This document shows positions 3,872-51,197 of a stretch of 64,000 bases of DNA, one piece after another. Every line of letters starts with the position of its first letter. Position 1 is the stretch's first letter. Below the pieces are notes generated by a model. The model did no database searches. It was not told the DNA's origin and was given only the letters and a program-made list of their open reading frames with translations. The translations under genes were made by a program, and so were the position numbers. Source of the stretch: Vicinamibacterales bacterium (GTDB lineage: Bacteria; Acidobacteriota; Vicinamibacteria; Vicinamibacterales; Fen-181); NCBI GenBank assembly GCA_036504215.1, contig DASXVO010000040.1, positions 1 through 64,000 on the forward strand, read 5' to 3'.

Positions 3872-4852
3872 TCAGGGAAGCAGCCGGACCAGCCCTTCGG
3901 TCGCAAGGTGGGTCGTGAACCAGACGGCCTCGGCGGCGAGACCACTGAGGACGACGACGACGATCACGATCGGAATCGACCATGCGCGCGGAAGGCGGGA
4001 GTCGTCGCGCAGAATCGGGCCGCTGAGCAAGCGCTCGACACGCGCCGACAGCAGCGTTCCGTCGTAGAACCGGCTGCCGGCGGTTGCAACACCCGGCGGC
4101 GTGAGGCGCGCCACCTTCAGCAACGCGGAGGCCAGCGACAGGGCGCGTCGCGGGTCGCCGGCTGCGGCGCGGGCGTCTGCTGCAAACTCCATCGCCGCGC
4201 GCCACCGCTGCTCGATGTGGCGGCCGCCAGTCGTCCATCTCAACAGGTCCGGGCAGCAGGACACCAGCGCGCGTTTCACGTTGTCCCGGCTCTCCCGGTG
4301 CGCCAACTCGTGGGAGAGCCCGACGGCGAGTTCGTCGGGTGTCAGCGCGTCCACCAGACTCCTCGAGAGGAACAGGCGCGGACGTCGAATTCCCACGAGC
4401 GCGAGGACGGGAGCCGGATCGGTCAACCAGTGGAAGGAACCAGGGAACCTGTCAACGGGCGGCTGACGTGTCTCGTCGCAGCCGGCCGCACGCCATGAGT
4501 GTTCCATCTGCCGCGTCGCGCGCAGGTCGCGAAGTGCGCGTCCCGCGGTCGTCGCGAGGATCGCGGCACCGGCAGCCGCCAGGACCATCAGGCAGACGCC
4601 CGCGGTTTCTTCGACGCCTTCGGGTTCGAACCGCCACTGCGCCGGCAGGAACACGAGGAGGATGAACCACAGCGAGGCCATACCCGGCAACAGCCGGAGG
4701 ACGAGCAGCGCGCGCGGTGTCGAGGCGAGATGCGAGGGGATCGCGCCGCGCTGGCCGCTCCAGCCCAGGAAGGCAATCAGCCCGGACAGGCCGATGTTCA
4801 CCGCCCCGAACCAGGCGAGCACGAGCACCAGCGTGAATAGCGCTTCGTTCAC
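3872..4852 (-). CDS. M56 (BlaR1-like) membrane metallopeptidase
   Basis: Integral-membrane zinc peptidase of the BlaR1/MecR1 type, which in known systems cleaves the partner BlaI repressor after sensing a signal. I start it at the GTG at 4852, whose GTGA overlaps the stop of the blaI-like gene, giving 326 aa; the open frame extends further upstream but is internal to blaI. Membrane segments lie near residues 3-30, 48-70 and 85-105. The zinc motif HELAH is at 181-185 and the third-ligand motif EFAAD at about 222-226. A last membrane segment is near the C-terminus. There is no penicillin-binding sensor domain, so the signal is probably not a beta-lactam captured by this protein. Confidence 0.85.
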   Translation of the reverse strand: MNEALFTLVLVLAWFGAVNIGLSGLIAFLGWSGQRGAIPSHLASTPRALLVLRLLPGMASLWFILLVFLPAQWRFEPEGVEETAGVCLMVLAAAGAAILATTAGRALRDLRATRQMEHSWRAAGCDETRQPPVDRFPGSFHWLTDPAPVLALVGIRRPRLFLSRSLVDALTPDELAVGLSHELAHRESRDNVKRALVSCCPDLLRWTTGGRHIEQRWRAAMEFAADARAAAGDPRRALSLASALLKVARLTPPGVATAGSRFYDGTLLSARVERLLSGPILRDDSRLPRAWSIPIVIVVVVLSGLAAEAVWFTTHLATEGLVRLLP

Positions 4853-38857: not shown

Positions 38858-38969
38858 TCCCGACGATTCGCCTCTCGCGCCTGGCTCCGAGCACCCGGCC
38901 TTCTCGTGGCGCCGGAGAGCGCTTGTCAGCGAGGCGCGAGCCCGAGCATACTTGCGCGAAGAGGTGTGC

Positions 38970-40862
38970 ATGTCAGCGGCATCACTCCGGCGCAAGATCT
39001 GGTCAAGCCTGCTCCTCGCCCCCGCGGCCGTCGCGATCCTCCACACGGCCCGTGCGCAGGAGTCGATGAACGCGCCCGACGTCAAGGCGAGCTACACCAA
39101 GCAAGAGACGATGATCCCGATGCGAGACGGGACAAAGCTCTTCACGATCATCTACGCGCCGCGCGACACCTCCCAGCGCTATCCCTTCATGCTCACGCGC
39201 ACCGCCTACAGCATCGCGCCGTACGGGCCGGACAACTATCGCAACGTGGTCGGCCCGAGCGACCTGTTCACGCGCGAGGGCTACATCTTCGTCTACCAGG
39301 ATGCGCGCGGCCGGTTCAAGTCCGAAGGAACGTTCATCCACCACCTGCCCTTCGATCGCTCGGGGACGCCGAACGAGAGCACCGACACCTACGACACGAT
39401 CGAGTGGCTGCTGAAGAACGTGCCGAACAACAACGGGCGCGCCGGCCAGTGGGGCATCTCGTGGGACGGGTGGGAGACGTCGATGGGGATGATCGACGCC
39501 CACCCGGCGCTCAAGGCCTCCTCGCCGCAGGCGCCGCCCCAGGACCAGTTCCTGGGCGACGACTACCATTCGGGCGGGGCGTACCAGCTCATGTACGGCT
39601 TTGCCTGGATGTCGTCGAATGCGCGCGCCCGCACGGCGCCCACCGAGCAGCGCACGGCGCGCTTCGACTACGGCACGCCGGATGGCTACCGCTTCTTCTT
39701 GAACATGGGTGCCGCGGCCGACGCGACCAGGTATTTCGGCGACACGGTGCCGACCTGGAACGACCACATGACGCACGGGACGTACGACGGCTACTGGAAG
39801 GCCCGCAACGTTCCCAAGGATCTCGGCAACGTCCGCCACCCGGTCCTGATCGTCGCGGGCTGGTTCGACGCCGAAGACTTCTACGGCCCCTTTCGGATGT
39901 ACCGTGCGCTGAAGCAGAACAACCCCGATCGCACGACGCTCGTCGTGGGTCCCTGGGCGCATGGCGGGTGGGCCCACGGCGACGGCGACCGGCTCGGTGC
40001 GATCCCGTTCGGGTCGAGGACGAGCCAATACTACCGGGCGGAGGTGGAGTTGCCGTTCTTCAACTTCTACCTGAAGGACAAGGGGCGCATCGATCTTCCG
40101 CGCGCGCTCGCATTCGAGACGGGCCGCAACGCGTGGCGGCGGTCCGACACGTGGCCGCCCGCGGAGACCTCCGAGAAGCGGCTCTACTTGCAGGCTGGCG
40201 GCCGCCTTGCCCTCGAGCCGCCCGCCGCCAGCGAGACCACCGCATTCGACTCGTACTCGAGCGACCCCGCAAAGCCGGTCCCTTACACCGCCGAGCTGCG
40301 CACCACCGAGGGCCAGACCTTCACCGTCGAGGACCAGCGGTTCGCGTGGAGCCGTCCCGACGTCCTGTCGTACGAATCCGAGCCGCTGGTTGAGGACCTG
40401 ACGGTGGCCGGACCAATCACCGCCACGCTCTACGTGTCGACAACCGGTACTGATTCGGACTGGGTGGTGAAGCTCGTCGACGTCTACCCGGACAATGCGC
40501 CCGATCCGCAGCCCAACCCGGCGAATGTGCGGATGGGCGGCTACCAGATGCTGCTGGCTGGCGACCTGCTGCGCTGCAAGTTCAGGGAGAGCCTGTCTGA
40601 ACCCAAGCCGATGGTGCCCGGTGAGGTCACCCGGATCGAGGTCGGCCTCGGCGACCGGTGCCACACCTTCTTGAAGGGCCACCGCGTCCTGGTGCAGATT
40701 CAGAGTTCGTGGTTCCCGATGTTCGATCGCAACCCACAGAGTTTCGTCGACATCTACCACGCGAAGCCCTCCGACTACCGGACGGCGACCCAGCGCGTGT
40801 ATCGCTCGGCAACGCGACCGTCGCACGTGGTACTGACCGTCACGCATGCCGCGCTCAGGTGA
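38970..40862 (+). CDS. Secreted CocE/NonD-family serine hydrolase
   Basis: 630-residue exported hydrolase related to cocaine esterase, alpha-amino-acid ester hydrolases and X-Pro dipeptidyl-peptidases. The ATG at 38970 has GAGGTG about 5 nt upstream; a TTG 18 nt earlier is less likely. Signal peptide to about residue 30. The alpha/beta-hydrolase core carries the probable nucleophile S164 in GISWDG (usually GxSYxG; here Trp replaces the common Tyr), D300 in VAGWFDAEDFYGPF and H331 in GPWAHGGWAHGDG. The C-terminal jelly-roll domain (about 400-630) is complete. Stands alone after the symporter operon. Confidence 0.9.
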   Translation: MSAASLRRKIWSSLLLAPAAVAILHTARAQESMNAPDVKASYTKQETMIPMRDGTKLFTIIYAPRDTSQRYPFMLTRTAYSIAPYGPDNYRNVVGPSDLFTREGYIFVYQDARGRFKSEGTFIHHLPFDRSGTPNESTDTYDTIEWLLKNVPNNNGRAGQWGISWDGWETSMGMIDAHPALKASSPQAPPQDQFLGDDYHSGGAYQLMYGFAWMSSNARARTAPTEQRTARFDYGTPDGYRFFLNMGAAADATRYFGDTVPTWNDHMTHGTYDGYWKARNVPKDLGNVRHPVLIVAGWFDAEDFYGPFRMYRALKQNNPDRTTLVVGPWAHGGWAHGDGDRLGAIPFGSRTSQYYRAEVELPFFNFYLKDKGRIDLPRALAFETGRNAWRRSDTWPPAETSEKRLYLQAGGRLALEPPAASETTAFDSYSSDPAKPVPYTAELRTTEGQTFTVEDQRFAWSRPDVLSYESEPLVEDLTVAGPITATLYVSTTGTDSDWVVKLVDVYPDNAPDPQPNPANVRMGGYQMLLAGDLLRCKFRESLSEPKPMVPGEVTRIEVGLGDRCHTFLKGHRVLVQIQSSWFPMFDRNPQSFVDIYHAKPSDYRTATQRVYRSATRPSHVVLTVTHAALR

Positions 40863-40963
40863 GGAAGTTACGAAGGCGGCGAGCGCTGACATCTCGCAAG
40901 TGAAGCCTGGCGAAGAGCCGAGCCGGTCGTCGCTGGAGCGACCGCTATAATGGTGACAGGACC

Positions 40964-41281
40964 ATGAAGGACCTCGTCTTGCTGACCCGCCACGGCTGCC
41001 GCAAGACGGCTGCGATGCTCACGAACCTCGACGCCGCGCTCGAGGCGCAGGGCTGGCCGCCTGGATGTCAGCGCCTCGACATCGGCACGCTACCGGCCAG
41101 TGACCCGCGAACGGGCTATCCGACGCCGACGCTGCTCTACCAGGGCAACGACGTGTTCGGGATGCCGGTTCCACAGCCGCCATTCGACGTGCCCAGTTGA
41201 CGTCTCTACCCGGGCGGAGTTCCGTCCTCAGCCGAGATCACGAAGCAACTGATCCACGCGACGAACGTCGGAGATGTGTGA
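40964..41281 (+). CDS. Thioredoxin-like protein, candidate selenoprotein with in-frame UGA at codon 79
   Basis: Read to the first stop (41198-41200, TGA) this is a 78-residue thioredoxin-like protein with a CxxT site (RHGCRKT, residues 9-15) and a PTPTLLYQG strand. The same frame continues past TGA for 26 sensible codons to TGA at 41279: RLYPGGVPSSAEITKQLIHA then TNVGDV. From memory, relatives of this small Trx-like type carry a conserved Cys before R-x-Y and continue to a G-x-PS and helix ending, just as here, so UGA stands exactly at a cysteine position. A two-part hairpin begins 1 nt after the UGA and has its loop 17 nt away, within the range known for bacterial SECIS elements. Alternatives are a Cys-to-stop mutation or a sequencing error. 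No sel genes are in the window. The PP-loop gene starts 20 nt later. Confidence 0.6.
41202..41238 (+). promoter_or_regulatory. SECIS-like hairpin downstream of in-frame UGA
   Basis: Lower stem GUCUC (41202-41206) with GAGAU (41234-41238), an internal loop, upper stem GGGCGG (41212-41217) with CCGUCC (41222-41227), and apical loop AGUU (41218-41221). The loop has G at its second base and sits 17 nt after the UGA, which fits the published bacterial SECIS rules (G in the first two loop bases; 16-37 nt spacing). GC-rich DNA forms hairpins easily, so this is supporting, not decisive, evidence. Confidence 0.45.
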
Positions 41282-41301
41282 AGCCTGCCCGCCGGATCGC
41301 A

Positions 41302-42012
41302 ATGAAGACACTCCTCTCCTGGAGCAGCGGCAAGGACAGCGCCTGGGCACTGCACGTACTCAGGGGCGGTGCCGACGTCGAGGTCGTGGGCCTGTTGACG
41401 ACGATCAACGCCGTCGCCGGTCGAGTGGCCATGCACGCGGTGCGCGAGGAGTTGCTCGATCAGCAGGCGGCCGCGCTCGGCCTTCCCGTGGTGAAGCTTC
41501 GGATCCCGAGTCCGTGCTCGAATGATCGGTACGACGCAGTCATGGCCGCCGCGATGGAGCGAGCACGGGCGGACGGCATCGAGGCGATCGCGTTCGGCGA
41601 CCTGTTCCTCGAAGACGTGAGGCGCTACCGCGAGCAAAGACTGGAACCGACCGGTGTCACGGCGGTCTTCCCCTTGTGGGGACGGCCCACGGCCGCAGTG
41701 GCGCGGGAGATGGTCGAGGCGGGTATGAGGGCCGTCATCACCTGCGTCGATCCGCGGCAGCTCGATCCGGGTTTTGCGGGAAGGACCTTCGACGCGGCGT
41801 TCCTCTCGGGCCTGCCCGCCACTGTCGACCCGTGCGGGGAGAACGGCGAGTTCCACACCTTTGCCTTCGCCGGACCCATGTTCTCGTCGCCGCTGCCAGT
41901 GGAACCGGGGATCATCGTCGAGCGCGACGGCTTCGTCTTCGCCGATCTGCAGCTCGCGACGTCCCCGCCCGATCCCATGCCTCCCTGGATTCCGCTCGAC
42001 GTGCGCGATTGA
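41302..42012 (+). CDS. PP-loop ATP pyrophosphatase, diphthine-ammonia-ligase-like (MJ0570 family)
   Basis: 236-residue protein with the PP-loop motif SWSSGKDSAWAL at the N-terminus (from ATG 41302), which binds ATP and activates a carbonyl or acid by adenylation. The C-terminal signature CGENGEFHTFAF and the internal IAFGDLFLEDVRRYREQRLE are characteristic of the diphthine-ammonia ligase/MJ0570 family. Bacteria lack diphthamide, so the bacterial members have another, unknown amidation or thiolation target. Begins 20 nt after the candidate selenoprotein, so the two may be co-transcribed. The frame extends upstream to 41197 without support. Confidence 0.85.
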   Translation: MKTLLSWSSGKDSAWALHVLRGGADVEVVGLLTTINAVAGRVAMHAVREELLDQQAAALGLPVVKLRIPSPCSNDRYDAVMAAAMERARADGIEAIAFGDLFLEDVRRYREQRLEPTGVTAVFPLWGRPTAAVAREMVEAGMRAVITCVDPRQLDPGFAGRTFDAAFLSGLPATVDPCGENGEFHTFAFAGPMFSSPLPVEPGIIVERDGFVFADLQLATSPPDPMPPWIPLDVRD

Positions 42013-45262: not shown

Positions 45263-46564
45263 CTAAGGACTCTGACCACAATTAGTGTTTCATCTGCGGT
45301 TCATCTGTGATCTAATGACCGCATGCGACGCGACCTCGATGTCGAAGCGGCCATCGTGGCCAAGTACGTCGTGTTGGAGCCGGTGCTCGATGAACGCGCA
45401 CGGCGGCTGTGGGCGGCCGCCGAATCGCGCGCGATTGGATTCGGCGGCGATGCCTTGGTGGCGGCCGCGACCGGGATGGCGCGACAGACCATCCGCCGAG
45501 GTCGTGAGGAACTGGCGGCAGGTCCCGTCGCGACCGGACGGATTCGGCGGCCTGGCGCGGGGCGTCCGATCCTGGAAGCGAAGCAACCGGGCTTGGCGGC
45601 CGCGCTGGAGCGCTTGGTCGAGCCGGTGACTCGGGGCGATCCGACCTCGCCGTTGCGGTGGACCTGTAAGAGCCGCGGCAACCTGACGGACGCCCTGGTG
45701 AAGCAGGGCTGGGCCGTCAGTTCGACGACGGTGGGCCGCCTGCTGCACGCCTTGGGCTATCGCCTCCAGTCCGTGCGCAAGAGTCGGGAGGGCACGGTGC
45801 ACCCGGATCGGAATGCGCAGTTCGACTGGATCAACGGGATCGCCGCCGCGTTCTTGGAGCGCGGGCAACCTGTCATTTCCGTGGACACCAAGAAGAAGGA
45901 ACTGGTCGGGGACTTCAAGAACGCTGGCCGGGAATGGCAGCCGTCGGGGACGCCGGAGGCGGCGCTCGTGCATGACTTCCCCACGGACGCCGTCGGCAAG
46001 GCGATTCCCTACGGCGTGTATGACATGGCTCGCAACGAGGCGTGGGTCAGCGTGGGCCGCGACCATGACACGCCCGCCTTCGCGGTGGCCTCGATCCGCC
46101 AGTGGTGGAAGATGATGGGTCGCCGCGCCTACCCGACGGCCGAGGCCCTCTTCATCACCGCCGACGCCGGCGGAAGCAACGGCTACCGTGCTCGGGCGTG
46201 GAAGACGGAACTGCAGACCCTGGCCGATGCGCTGCGCCTCTGCATCCACGTGTCGCACTTTCCACCGGGGACGAGCAAGTGGAACAAGATCGAGCACCGG
46301 CTCTTCTGCCACATCACGCAGAACTGGCGCGGCAAGCCCCTTCGCACCTTCGAGACCGTCGTCGAACTGATTGGCCACACGCGTACCGCCGCCGGTCTCC
46401 GCGTCAAAGCCCGGTTGGACACGGCGACGTATGCGACCGGGCGTGTCGTGACACGAGCGGAGATGAACGAACTGGCGTTGCACCCCTATGACTTTCACGG
46501 GGAGTGGAACTACGAACTGCGACCCCGGCGAAGTTGATTAGATTATTTCGATCAAACGCCTAAG
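45263..46564 (+). mobile_element. ISAzo13-family insertion sequence, left copy
   Basis: 1302 bp between terminal inverted repeats CTAAGGACTCTGA (45263-45275) and, reverse-complemented, CTTAGGCGTTTGA (46552-46564), matching at 9 of 13 positions. A single full-length transposase gene fills it. The right-hand copy has the same length and related ends (consensus CTWAGG followed by TGA at 11-13), which fixes the boundaries to within a few bases. Confidence 0.8.
45323..46537 (+). CDS. ISAzo13-family transposase (left copy)
   Basis: 404-residue transposase of the ISAzo13 type. An N-terminal helix-turn-helix region (GFGGDALVAAATGMARQTIR) is followed by the family blocks RIRRPGAGR, GDPTSPLRWTCKS, TVGRLLHALGY and then an RNase-H-like catalytic core: ISVDTKKKELVGDFKNAGRE (first acid), FITADAGGSNGYRARAWK (second acid) and HFPPGTSKWNKIEHRLFCHI (third acid). 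Frame intact and probably functional. It differs from the right-hand copy at about 65 of 404 positions by my count. Confidence 0.92.
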   Translation: MRRDLDVEAAIVAKYVVLEPVLDERARRLWAAAESRAIGFGGDALVAAATGMARQTIRRGREELAAGPVATGRIRRPGAGRPILEAKQPGLAAALERLVEPVTRGDPTSPLRWTCKSRGNLTDALVKQGWAVSSTTVGRLLHALGYRLQSVRKSREGTVHPDRNAQFDWINGIAAAFLERGQPVISVDTKKKELVGDFKNAGREWQPSGTPEAALVHDFPTDAVGKAIPYGVYDMARNEAWVSVGRDHDTPAFAVASIRQWWKMMGRRAYPTAEALFITADAGGSNGYRARAWKTELQTLADALRLCIHVSHFPPGTSKWNKIEHRLFCHITQNWRGKPLRTFETVVELIGHTRTAAGLRVKARLDTATYATGRVVTRAEMNELALHPYDFHGEWNYELRPRRS

Positions 46565-49895: not shown

Positions 49896-51197
49896 CTAAG
49901 GCGCCTGATCGATATTGAATAGTCAACTTCGCCGCGGGCGCAATTCGTAGTTCCACTCACCGTGGAAGTCATGGGGATGCAGCGACAACTCGCTCATCTC
50001 GGCGCGAGTGACCACGACGCCCGTGGGATAGGTCCTCGGGTCCAGCTTGGCCTTGACGCGGAGGCCGCTGGCGGTGCGCGTGTGGCCGATCAATGCGACG
50101 AGGGTCTCGAACGTCCGAAGCGGTTTCCCGCGCCAGTTCTGCGTGATGTGGCAGAAGAGCCGATGCTCGATCTTGTTCCACTTGCTCGTGCCGGGCGGAA
50201 AGTGGGACACGTGAACCCGCAACTGGAGCGCATCGGCCAGCGCCTGTACTTCGGTCTTCCACGCGCGGGCGCGGTAGCCGTTGCTGCCTCCCGAGTCGGC
50301 GGTGATGTAGAGGGCCTCCGCCTTCGGGTACGCCCGTCGCCCCATCATCGTCCACCACTGCCGAATCGACGCGGCGGCGAACGCCGGCGTGTCATGGTCG
50401 CGTCCCACGCTCACCCACGCCTCGTTGCGCGCCATGTCGTACACGCCGTAGGGAATCGCCTTGCCGACGGCGTCCGTGGGGAAGTCATGCACGAGCGCCG
50501 TCTCCGGCTGTCCCGCGGGATGCCATTCCTGGCCGGCATTCTTGAAGTTCCCGACCAGTTCCTTCTTCTTGGTATCCACCGAAATGACCGGTTGCCCGTC
50601 CTGCAGAAACAGCGCCGCGGTCGCGTTGATCAGCTCGAACTGCGCGTTCCGATCGGGATGCGACGTGCCTTCGCGGCTCTTGCGCACCGATTGCAGACTG
50701 TAGCCCAACTCGTGCAGCAACCGGCCCACCGTGGTCGAACCCACGCCCCAGCCCTGCTTCACCAAGGCCGCCGTCAACTGCGCGCGGCTCTTGCAGGTCC
50801 AGCGCAACGGCGACGTCGGGTCGCCGCGCGTCAGCGGGTCGACCAGTTGCTCGAGGGCGGCGGTCAAGCCGCGTTGCCGGGCCTCCAGCACGGGACGCCC
50901 CGCGCCAGGTCGTCGGATGCGTCCCGTGATCGCGACGCCTGCCGCCAATTCCTGGCGGCGCCGTCGGATCGTGTCGCGCGCCAAGCCGGTGACGGCCGAC
51001 ACCAACGCATCGCCTCCGAAGCCGATGGCTCGCGATTCCGTGGCGGCCCAGAGCCGCCGCGCTCGCTCATCGAGGACCGGTTCCAAGACCGCGTATTTCG
51101 CTACGACCGTCGCTTCGATGTCGAGGTTACGTCGCACGCACCTATTAGATCATGACTCAGCAGTATCTGTAGAAGTAATTTACGTCAGACTCCTAAG
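49896..51197 (-). mobile_element. ISAzo13-family insertion sequence, right copy
   Basis: 1302 bp, exactly the length of the left copy, in the opposite orientation. Terminal inverted repeats are CTAAGGCGCCTGA (49896-49908) and, reverse-complemented, CTTAGGAGTCTGA (51185-51197). The transposase frame is intact. Its 51197 end runs into the stop codon of the CDF exporter gene. Confidence 0.8.
49923..51137 (-). CDS. ISAzo13-family transposase (right copy)
   Basis: 404 residues, the same length and motif order as the left copy (ISVDTKKKELVGNFKNAGQE; YITADSGGSNGYRARAWK; HFPPGTSKWNKIEHRLFCHI), about 84% identical by eye. Starts at GTG 51137 where the other copy has ATG. Differences are spread through the protein and mostly conservative, indicating separate evolution under selection rather than decay. 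The catalytic core region between residues 215 and 250 is almost unchanged. Confidence 0.92.
   Translation of the reverse strand: MRRNLDIEATVVAKYAVLEPVLDERARRLWAATESRAIGFGGDALVSAVTGLARDTIRRRRQELAAGVAITGRIRRPGAGRPVLEARQRGLTAALEQLVDPLTRGDPTSPLRWTCKSRAQLTAALVKQGWGVGSTTVGRLLHELGYSLQSVRKSREGTSHPDRNAQFELINATAALFLQDGQPVISVDTKKKELVGNFKNAGQEWHPAGQPETALVHDFPTDAVGKAIPYGVYDMARNEAWVSVGRDHDTPAFAAASIRQWWTMMGRRAYPKAEALYITADSGGSNGYRARAWKTEVQALADALQLRVHVSHFPPGTSKWNKIEHRLFCHITQNWRGKPLRTFETLVALIGHTRTASGLRVKAKLDPRTYPTGVVVTRAEMSELSLHPHDFHGEWNYELRPRRS

Follow-up and report, generated by a model that had tools for sequence, protein, structure and literature searches.

The locus and its surroundings

The sequence analyzed is a stretch of 64,000 nucleotides (the window) from the genome of a soil-type bacterium of the Acidobacteriota (5.92 Mb in 90 contigs). 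An open reading frame on its forward strand, at positions 40964 to 41281, starts with ATG at 40964, runs for 78 codons to a TGA at 41198 to 41200, and continues for 26 codons, which encode RLYPGGVPSSAEITKQLIHATNVGDV, to a stop TGA at 41279 to 41281. When the internal TGA is read as selenocysteine (Sec), the product has 105 residues with Sec at position 79, and 26 other loci with a UGA show homology to it over its full length, on both sides of this codon. An earlier note, made from the DNA letters alone, had proposed a selenoprotein gene with exactly these coordinates, and all of them hold. It had also expected the gene to be truncated by conventional calling, and the ordinary stop-to-stop reading does end at the UGA.

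Upstream lies a gene for a CocE/NonD-type S15 hydrolase (38952 to 40862), and downstream a Diphthami_syn_2-type ATP pyrophosphatase gene with an ATG at 41302. The sequence TATAAT at 40946 to 40951 on the forward strand, 12 nt before the ATG of the selenoprotein gene, may on inspection be a -10 box, a good -35 box being absent. The mechanically delimited frame of the downstream gene (41197 to 42012) begins at a TTG within the selenoprotein gene; its likely start is the ATG at 41302. Elsewhere in the window, two similar 404-residue reading frames, possibly transposase-like, lie in opposite orientation at 45323 to 46537 (forward strand) and 49923 to 51137 (reverse strand).

Conservation of the UGA and exchange of Sec and Cys

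In 396 genomes of the phylum, 14 matches scored above 100 bits, the window gene included, and each of the 14 had a single in-frame TGA, located in the column of codon 79. Matches below 23 bits (L029 to L041) were judged to be noise, in the case of L029 after its translations had been read in several frames. A single-sequence scan of the genome collection gave no matches, and a later profile scan with one genome per species yielded 41 loci. One seeming Cys homologue (L028) proved to be a DF-type protein (see below). In the combined set, the column of codon 79 holds TGA in 27 distinct loci and TGC or TGT in 16, always before R-x-Y. The earlier note had placed a Cys at this position in relatives and had taken the codons after the UGA for the missing end of the domain; both views are borne out, since the 16 homologues carry Cys at position 79 and similarity continues past it.

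Sec forms were found in the Acidobacteriota, Gemmatimonadota, Krumholzibacteriota, Armatimonadota (Fimbriimonadaceae), and some bins of the Planctomycetota, and Cys forms in the Planctomycetota, Myxococcota, and Bacteroidota. The phylogenetic tree contains one clade of 23 Sec rows and 1 Cys row (support, 95/97). This lone Cys row (L051) retains most of the hairpin sequence described below and has lost the A of the loop, as expected for a recent change from Sec to Cys. The gene is absent from four genomes of the same genus, and the plasmids searched contained no homologue. Two loci (L050 and L056, JAIEMQ records) are titled "Cyanobacteria bacterium" and match a genome assigned to the same order as that of the window (G171); they probably come from a mislabelled bin.

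With UGA read as Cys, 37 proteins share ten invariant positions, namely, C12, A25, P55, T56, L58, Sec/Cys79, R80, Y82, G85, and P87. On the forward strand of the window, the codon of Cys12, which stands in a GC-x-x-T motif at the start of the first helix, is located at 40997 to 40999; the T-P-T codons 54 to 56, presumably at the usual cis-Pro position of the thioredoxin-like fold, at 41123 to 41131; and the R-L-Y codons that follow the UGA at 41201 to 41209. One homologue (L060) has two in-frame UGA codons (4646 to 4648 and 4841 to 4843), one of which replaces the otherwise invariant N-terminal Cys (G-U-x-x-T); a SECIS within the usual criteria was not found after the first UGA.

The SECIS hairpin

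The hairpin GGGCGG-AGUU-CCGUCC occupies positions 41212 to 41227 of the forward strand, where 41212 to 41217 pair with 41222 to 41227. Its apical loop AGUU (41218 to 41221), located 17 nt from the UGA, is invariant across all UGA forms. The codons GGA GTT CCG after the UGA are present in 27 of 27 Sec forms and, all three together, in 0 of 16 Cys forms, which are counts of rows related by descent and not of independent events; taken singly, GGA occurs in 1, GTT in 1, and CCG in 7 of the 16 Cys forms. Over codons 84 to 87 (GGC GGA GTT CCG), synonymous entropy is exactly 0 in the Sec forms, whereas it amounts to 0.67 to 2.27 bits at their other well-conserved codons (those with the same amino acid in 90% or more of the rows) and to 0.73 to 1.72 bits at the same four codons of the Cys forms. 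Since these codons are fixed in the UGA forms and variable in the Cys forms, the constraint acts on the RNA. GGA and GTT are minor codons, with a usage of 12% and 6%, respectively, in three neighboring genes of the window.

The pairing is preserved as well. The 6-bp helix is 98.1% paired in 26 sequences, with compensatory changes at the outer pair (GC/CG/UA) and the third pair (GU/AU/GC). None of 500 shuffles and no slid version scored as high in covariation as the actual helix (0.182), which RNAalifold also recovered unaided. The stability of the hairpin in the window sequence alone is unremarkable, as 35% of synonymous recodings reach the same stability, and the single-sequence energy is therefore not used as proof. 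It is the comparative evidence that makes the case for a SECIS, and the comparison with the Cys forms and with the remaining codons of the same genes weighs more than the counts of related rows. Published criteria for bacterial SECIS elements are a loop of 3 to 9 nt with a G within its first two positions, a distance of 16 to 37 nt from the UGA, and a minimum free energy of -7.5 kcal/mol or lower (PMC13188914). The hairpin predicted in the earlier note falls within these limits with its loop AGUU, its distance of 17 nt, and a consensus energy of -10.1 kcal/mol. An Rfam search of the region returned nothing besides one chance match.

Selenocysteine machinery

The genome that contains the window encodes a tRNA-Sec with the anticodon UCA (66.3 bits) as well as SelA (526 bits), SelB (360 bits), and SelD (349 bits), and its selD itself carries an in-frame TGA within SCSGUASK. 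The earlier note had called for a search for these genes and had named their lack, or homologues ending at residue 78, as grounds against a selenoprotein; neither was found. A tRNA-Sec above 60 bits was detected in 18 of 21 other genomes with UGA forms and in 6 of 16 genomes with Cys forms; we set this line ourselves, and lower matches reach ~53 bits. Those of the window's own genome that were read with ARAGORN are tRNA-Ser. The three UGA-form genomes in which no tRNA-Sec above 60 bits was found (G120, G405, and G409) are drafts, and their incompleteness is probably the reason.

Predicted fold and lipoprotein forms

The AlphaFold2 model of the read-through protein (pLDDT, 89.6; pTM, 0.81) has the order strand-helix-strand-helix-strand-helix. 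Structure comparisons returned lists filled with thioredoxins and thioredoxin-like folds, none standing out (Z of ~7 to 8; Foldseek E value of 0.0065 at best). The protein is thus predicted to have a thioredoxin-like fold, as the earlier note had suggested. The N-terminal site is C12-R-K-T15, the Cys-x-x-Thr noted before, and so contains C-x-x-T instead of the redox motif C-x-x-C. Two chalcogen residues are invariant, Cys12 and Sec79, and they probably work as a pair. The window protein had no match in Pfam, and a sequence search of the PDB revealed no convincing relative. As read by eye, many homologues start with a signal peptide followed by a lipobox-like Cys; the window copy has no signal peptide.

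Relation to known selenoprotein families

A 2026 review lists 119 selenoprotein families and subfamilies (PMC13188914). Among those with an NCBIfam profile, the window protein touches only the "DF family (seleno)protein" (NF049942), with 15.2 bits against a cut-off of 70, and none of the profiles scanned is specific to its own family. All 14 members retrieved from the phylum match NF049942 weakly (best E value, 1.1e-6). For DF ("hypothetical protein DF"), the deep-Sep paper reported Sec in a single organism and found no further homologues with TGA (PMC12013277); the family is also listed in the review (PMC13188914). Both groups share the order of features C...G-S/T-P-T...D...U/C-R-x-Y, their Sec/Cys columns before R-x-Y align, and both have MerR/Mer neighbors. 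However, the C-terminal YPGGVPS of the window protein lacks the DF insertion, and DF proteins mostly contain Cys, whereas Sec is the rule across several phyla in the window's group. Judged by these sequence features, the window gene is best classified as a member of a new, Sec-dominated subfamily that is sister to DF, and not as a member of DF.

Other selenoproteins differ more clearly. The thioredoxin-like ones (Trx UxxC and the PF13192-type Sec.1/Sec.2) share the fold, and PF13192 is matched weakly by 6 of the 14 members; yet the Sec of the window protein lies outside a CxxC-type motif near helix 1, being located 67 residues past that Cys and before R-x-Y. The mercury-linked selenoproteins (the putative mercuric transport protein, the MerT/CopZ fusion NF045683, and the UxxU metal-binding protein NF041115) resemble the window's family in that Sec is tied to genes for Hg(II) handling, but they are of the MerT/MerP/HMA type, whereas the window's family is thioredoxin-like and represents an added, separate component. 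The literature on Sec in mer operons included no paper describing this family.

Mercury resistance genes near the homologues

In one locus (L062), the gene comes after merT, merP, and merA, all above the NCBIfam cut-offs, and a second locus (L065) shows this arrangement too, its merR being encoded on the opposite strand. MerR-type regulators are encoded beside or near the gene in L045, L046, L050, L053, L054, and L064, and the MerR cut-off is exceeded in L045, L054, and L065. Directly upstream of the gene, seven loci carry a mer operator, TTGACTCCGTAC-N4-GTACGGA, matched at 17 to 19 of 19 positions; its distance to the start of the conserved domain is 130 nt in L053 and 126 to 168 nt in L045, L046, L059, L062, L064, and L065. 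In 21 control loci, no site matched at 15 or more of 19 positions. Even within 1.5 kb, DF genes have MerR/Mer neighbors in 15 loci, compared with 0 of 21 control loci; the supposed controls with mer matches in a first tally were DF loci only, and the true controls had none. The majority of the Sec loci have no mer gene in the flanking DNA examined. No mer neighbors of the window's own copy were found, and no operator site matching at 14 or more of 19 positions is present in the window. A complete mer operon (MerR, a perfect mer operator, MerT, MerP, and MerA) is located on another contig of the same genome (L121, contig C59), away from the window.

The mer clusters and upstream operators of the homologues indicate that the family is probably induced by Hg(II) and consists of Sec/Cys proteins that are often lipid anchored. 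Hg(II) handling is thus well suggested for the family by gene context; as the window copy is without mer neighbors, mer operator, and signal peptide, its role is extrapolated from its relatives. The sister DF family, the lipoprotein forms, and the mercury resistance context were all absent from the earlier note.

Interpretation and alternatives

Taken together, the conservation of the UGA, the exchange of Cys and Sec, the constraint on the RNA, and the sel machinery support the selenoprotein interpretation of the earlier note, and we consider it practically certain that the locus is a selenoprotein gene. SelB with Sec-tRNA(UCA) would bind the hairpin just 3' of the UGA at 41198 to 41200, and Sec would be inserted as residue 79; when selenium is lacking, translation would end at 78 residues. 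That the UGA is a true stop, with a product of 78 residues and a mere remnant of similarity downstream, agrees with the usual function of this codon, which also ends the same gene; but R80, Y82, G85, and P87 are invariant beyond it, Cys homologues read straight through, the absence of synonymous variation is the mark of a functional RNA element, and TGA is kept in 27 loci, so that this reading is highly improbable. The probability of a sequencing error or a recent nonsense mutation is smaller still, as the same TGA occurs in independent genomes, although a single assembly of the organism itself was examined. Equally slight is the chance that the open frame past the UGA reflects its decoding as another amino acid (Trp, or readthrough by a near-cognate tRNA), given that the column contains Cys and never Trp in homologues without UGA, that the gene's own stop is UGA, and that the sel machinery is complete.

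The overall explanation in which we have high confidence is a 105-residue thioredoxin-like selenoprotein from a family whose job is most likely the handling of Hg(II) or other soft metals. Because the gene of the relatives lies behind a mer operator, together with merR-merT-merP-merA, and often encodes a lipoprotein, the Sec/Cys pair would trap Hg(II) on the outer side of the inner membrane; alternatively, it may repair metal-damaged thiols. A possible, though less favored, alternative is an ordinary selenium-dependent enzyme of redox repair, either a thiol oxidoreductase or peroxidase-like, for which the linkage to mer would reflect only the oxidative stress caused by metals. The thioredoxin-like fold, the two invariant chalcogen residues, and the many loci without mer genes in the flanking DNA are consistent with such an enzyme, but the mer operators that directly precede the gene in seven loci, the position in a merTPA operon in two, and the MerR/Mer neighborhood shared with DF argue against it. 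On balance, we lean slightly toward a function of the family in mercury defense. The more specific proposal, on which we are evenly divided, is that this undescribed subfamily is a mercury-induced mer component in several phyla, mostly a lipid-anchored thioredoxin-like protein in which Sec79 and Cys12 trap or pass on Hg(II). For the window copy, which might carry out the same chemistry in the cytoplasm, participation in mercury defense is suggested only tentatively.

Selenium binds mercury very tightly, so that a use of Sec by cells for the binding of Hg(II) becomes directly testable. The relatives of the window gene tie Sec to mercury-responsive promoters, and the family is an addition to the selenoprotein subfamilies, one whose SECIS signature is unusually clean.

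Further putative selenoproteins

Four DF-family matches (L099, L101, L106, and L109, each from position 1501 of the locus) have a TGA exactly at the column of C-R-x-Y, with hairpins after the UGA, compared with the single Sec form known to the DF paper (PMC12013277). A second putative selenoprotein gene (L047, 4281 to 4811; UGA at 4485 to 4487) is located between a MerT-like gene and a homologue of the window gene. Its product contains U-P-T-C and a membrane or signal anchor, is thioredoxin-like, and matched no NCBIfam or Pfam family above the cut-off. Relatives were detected in 46 of the 396 genomes of the phylum; most of these matches have exactly one in-frame TGA, and some adjoin DF genes.
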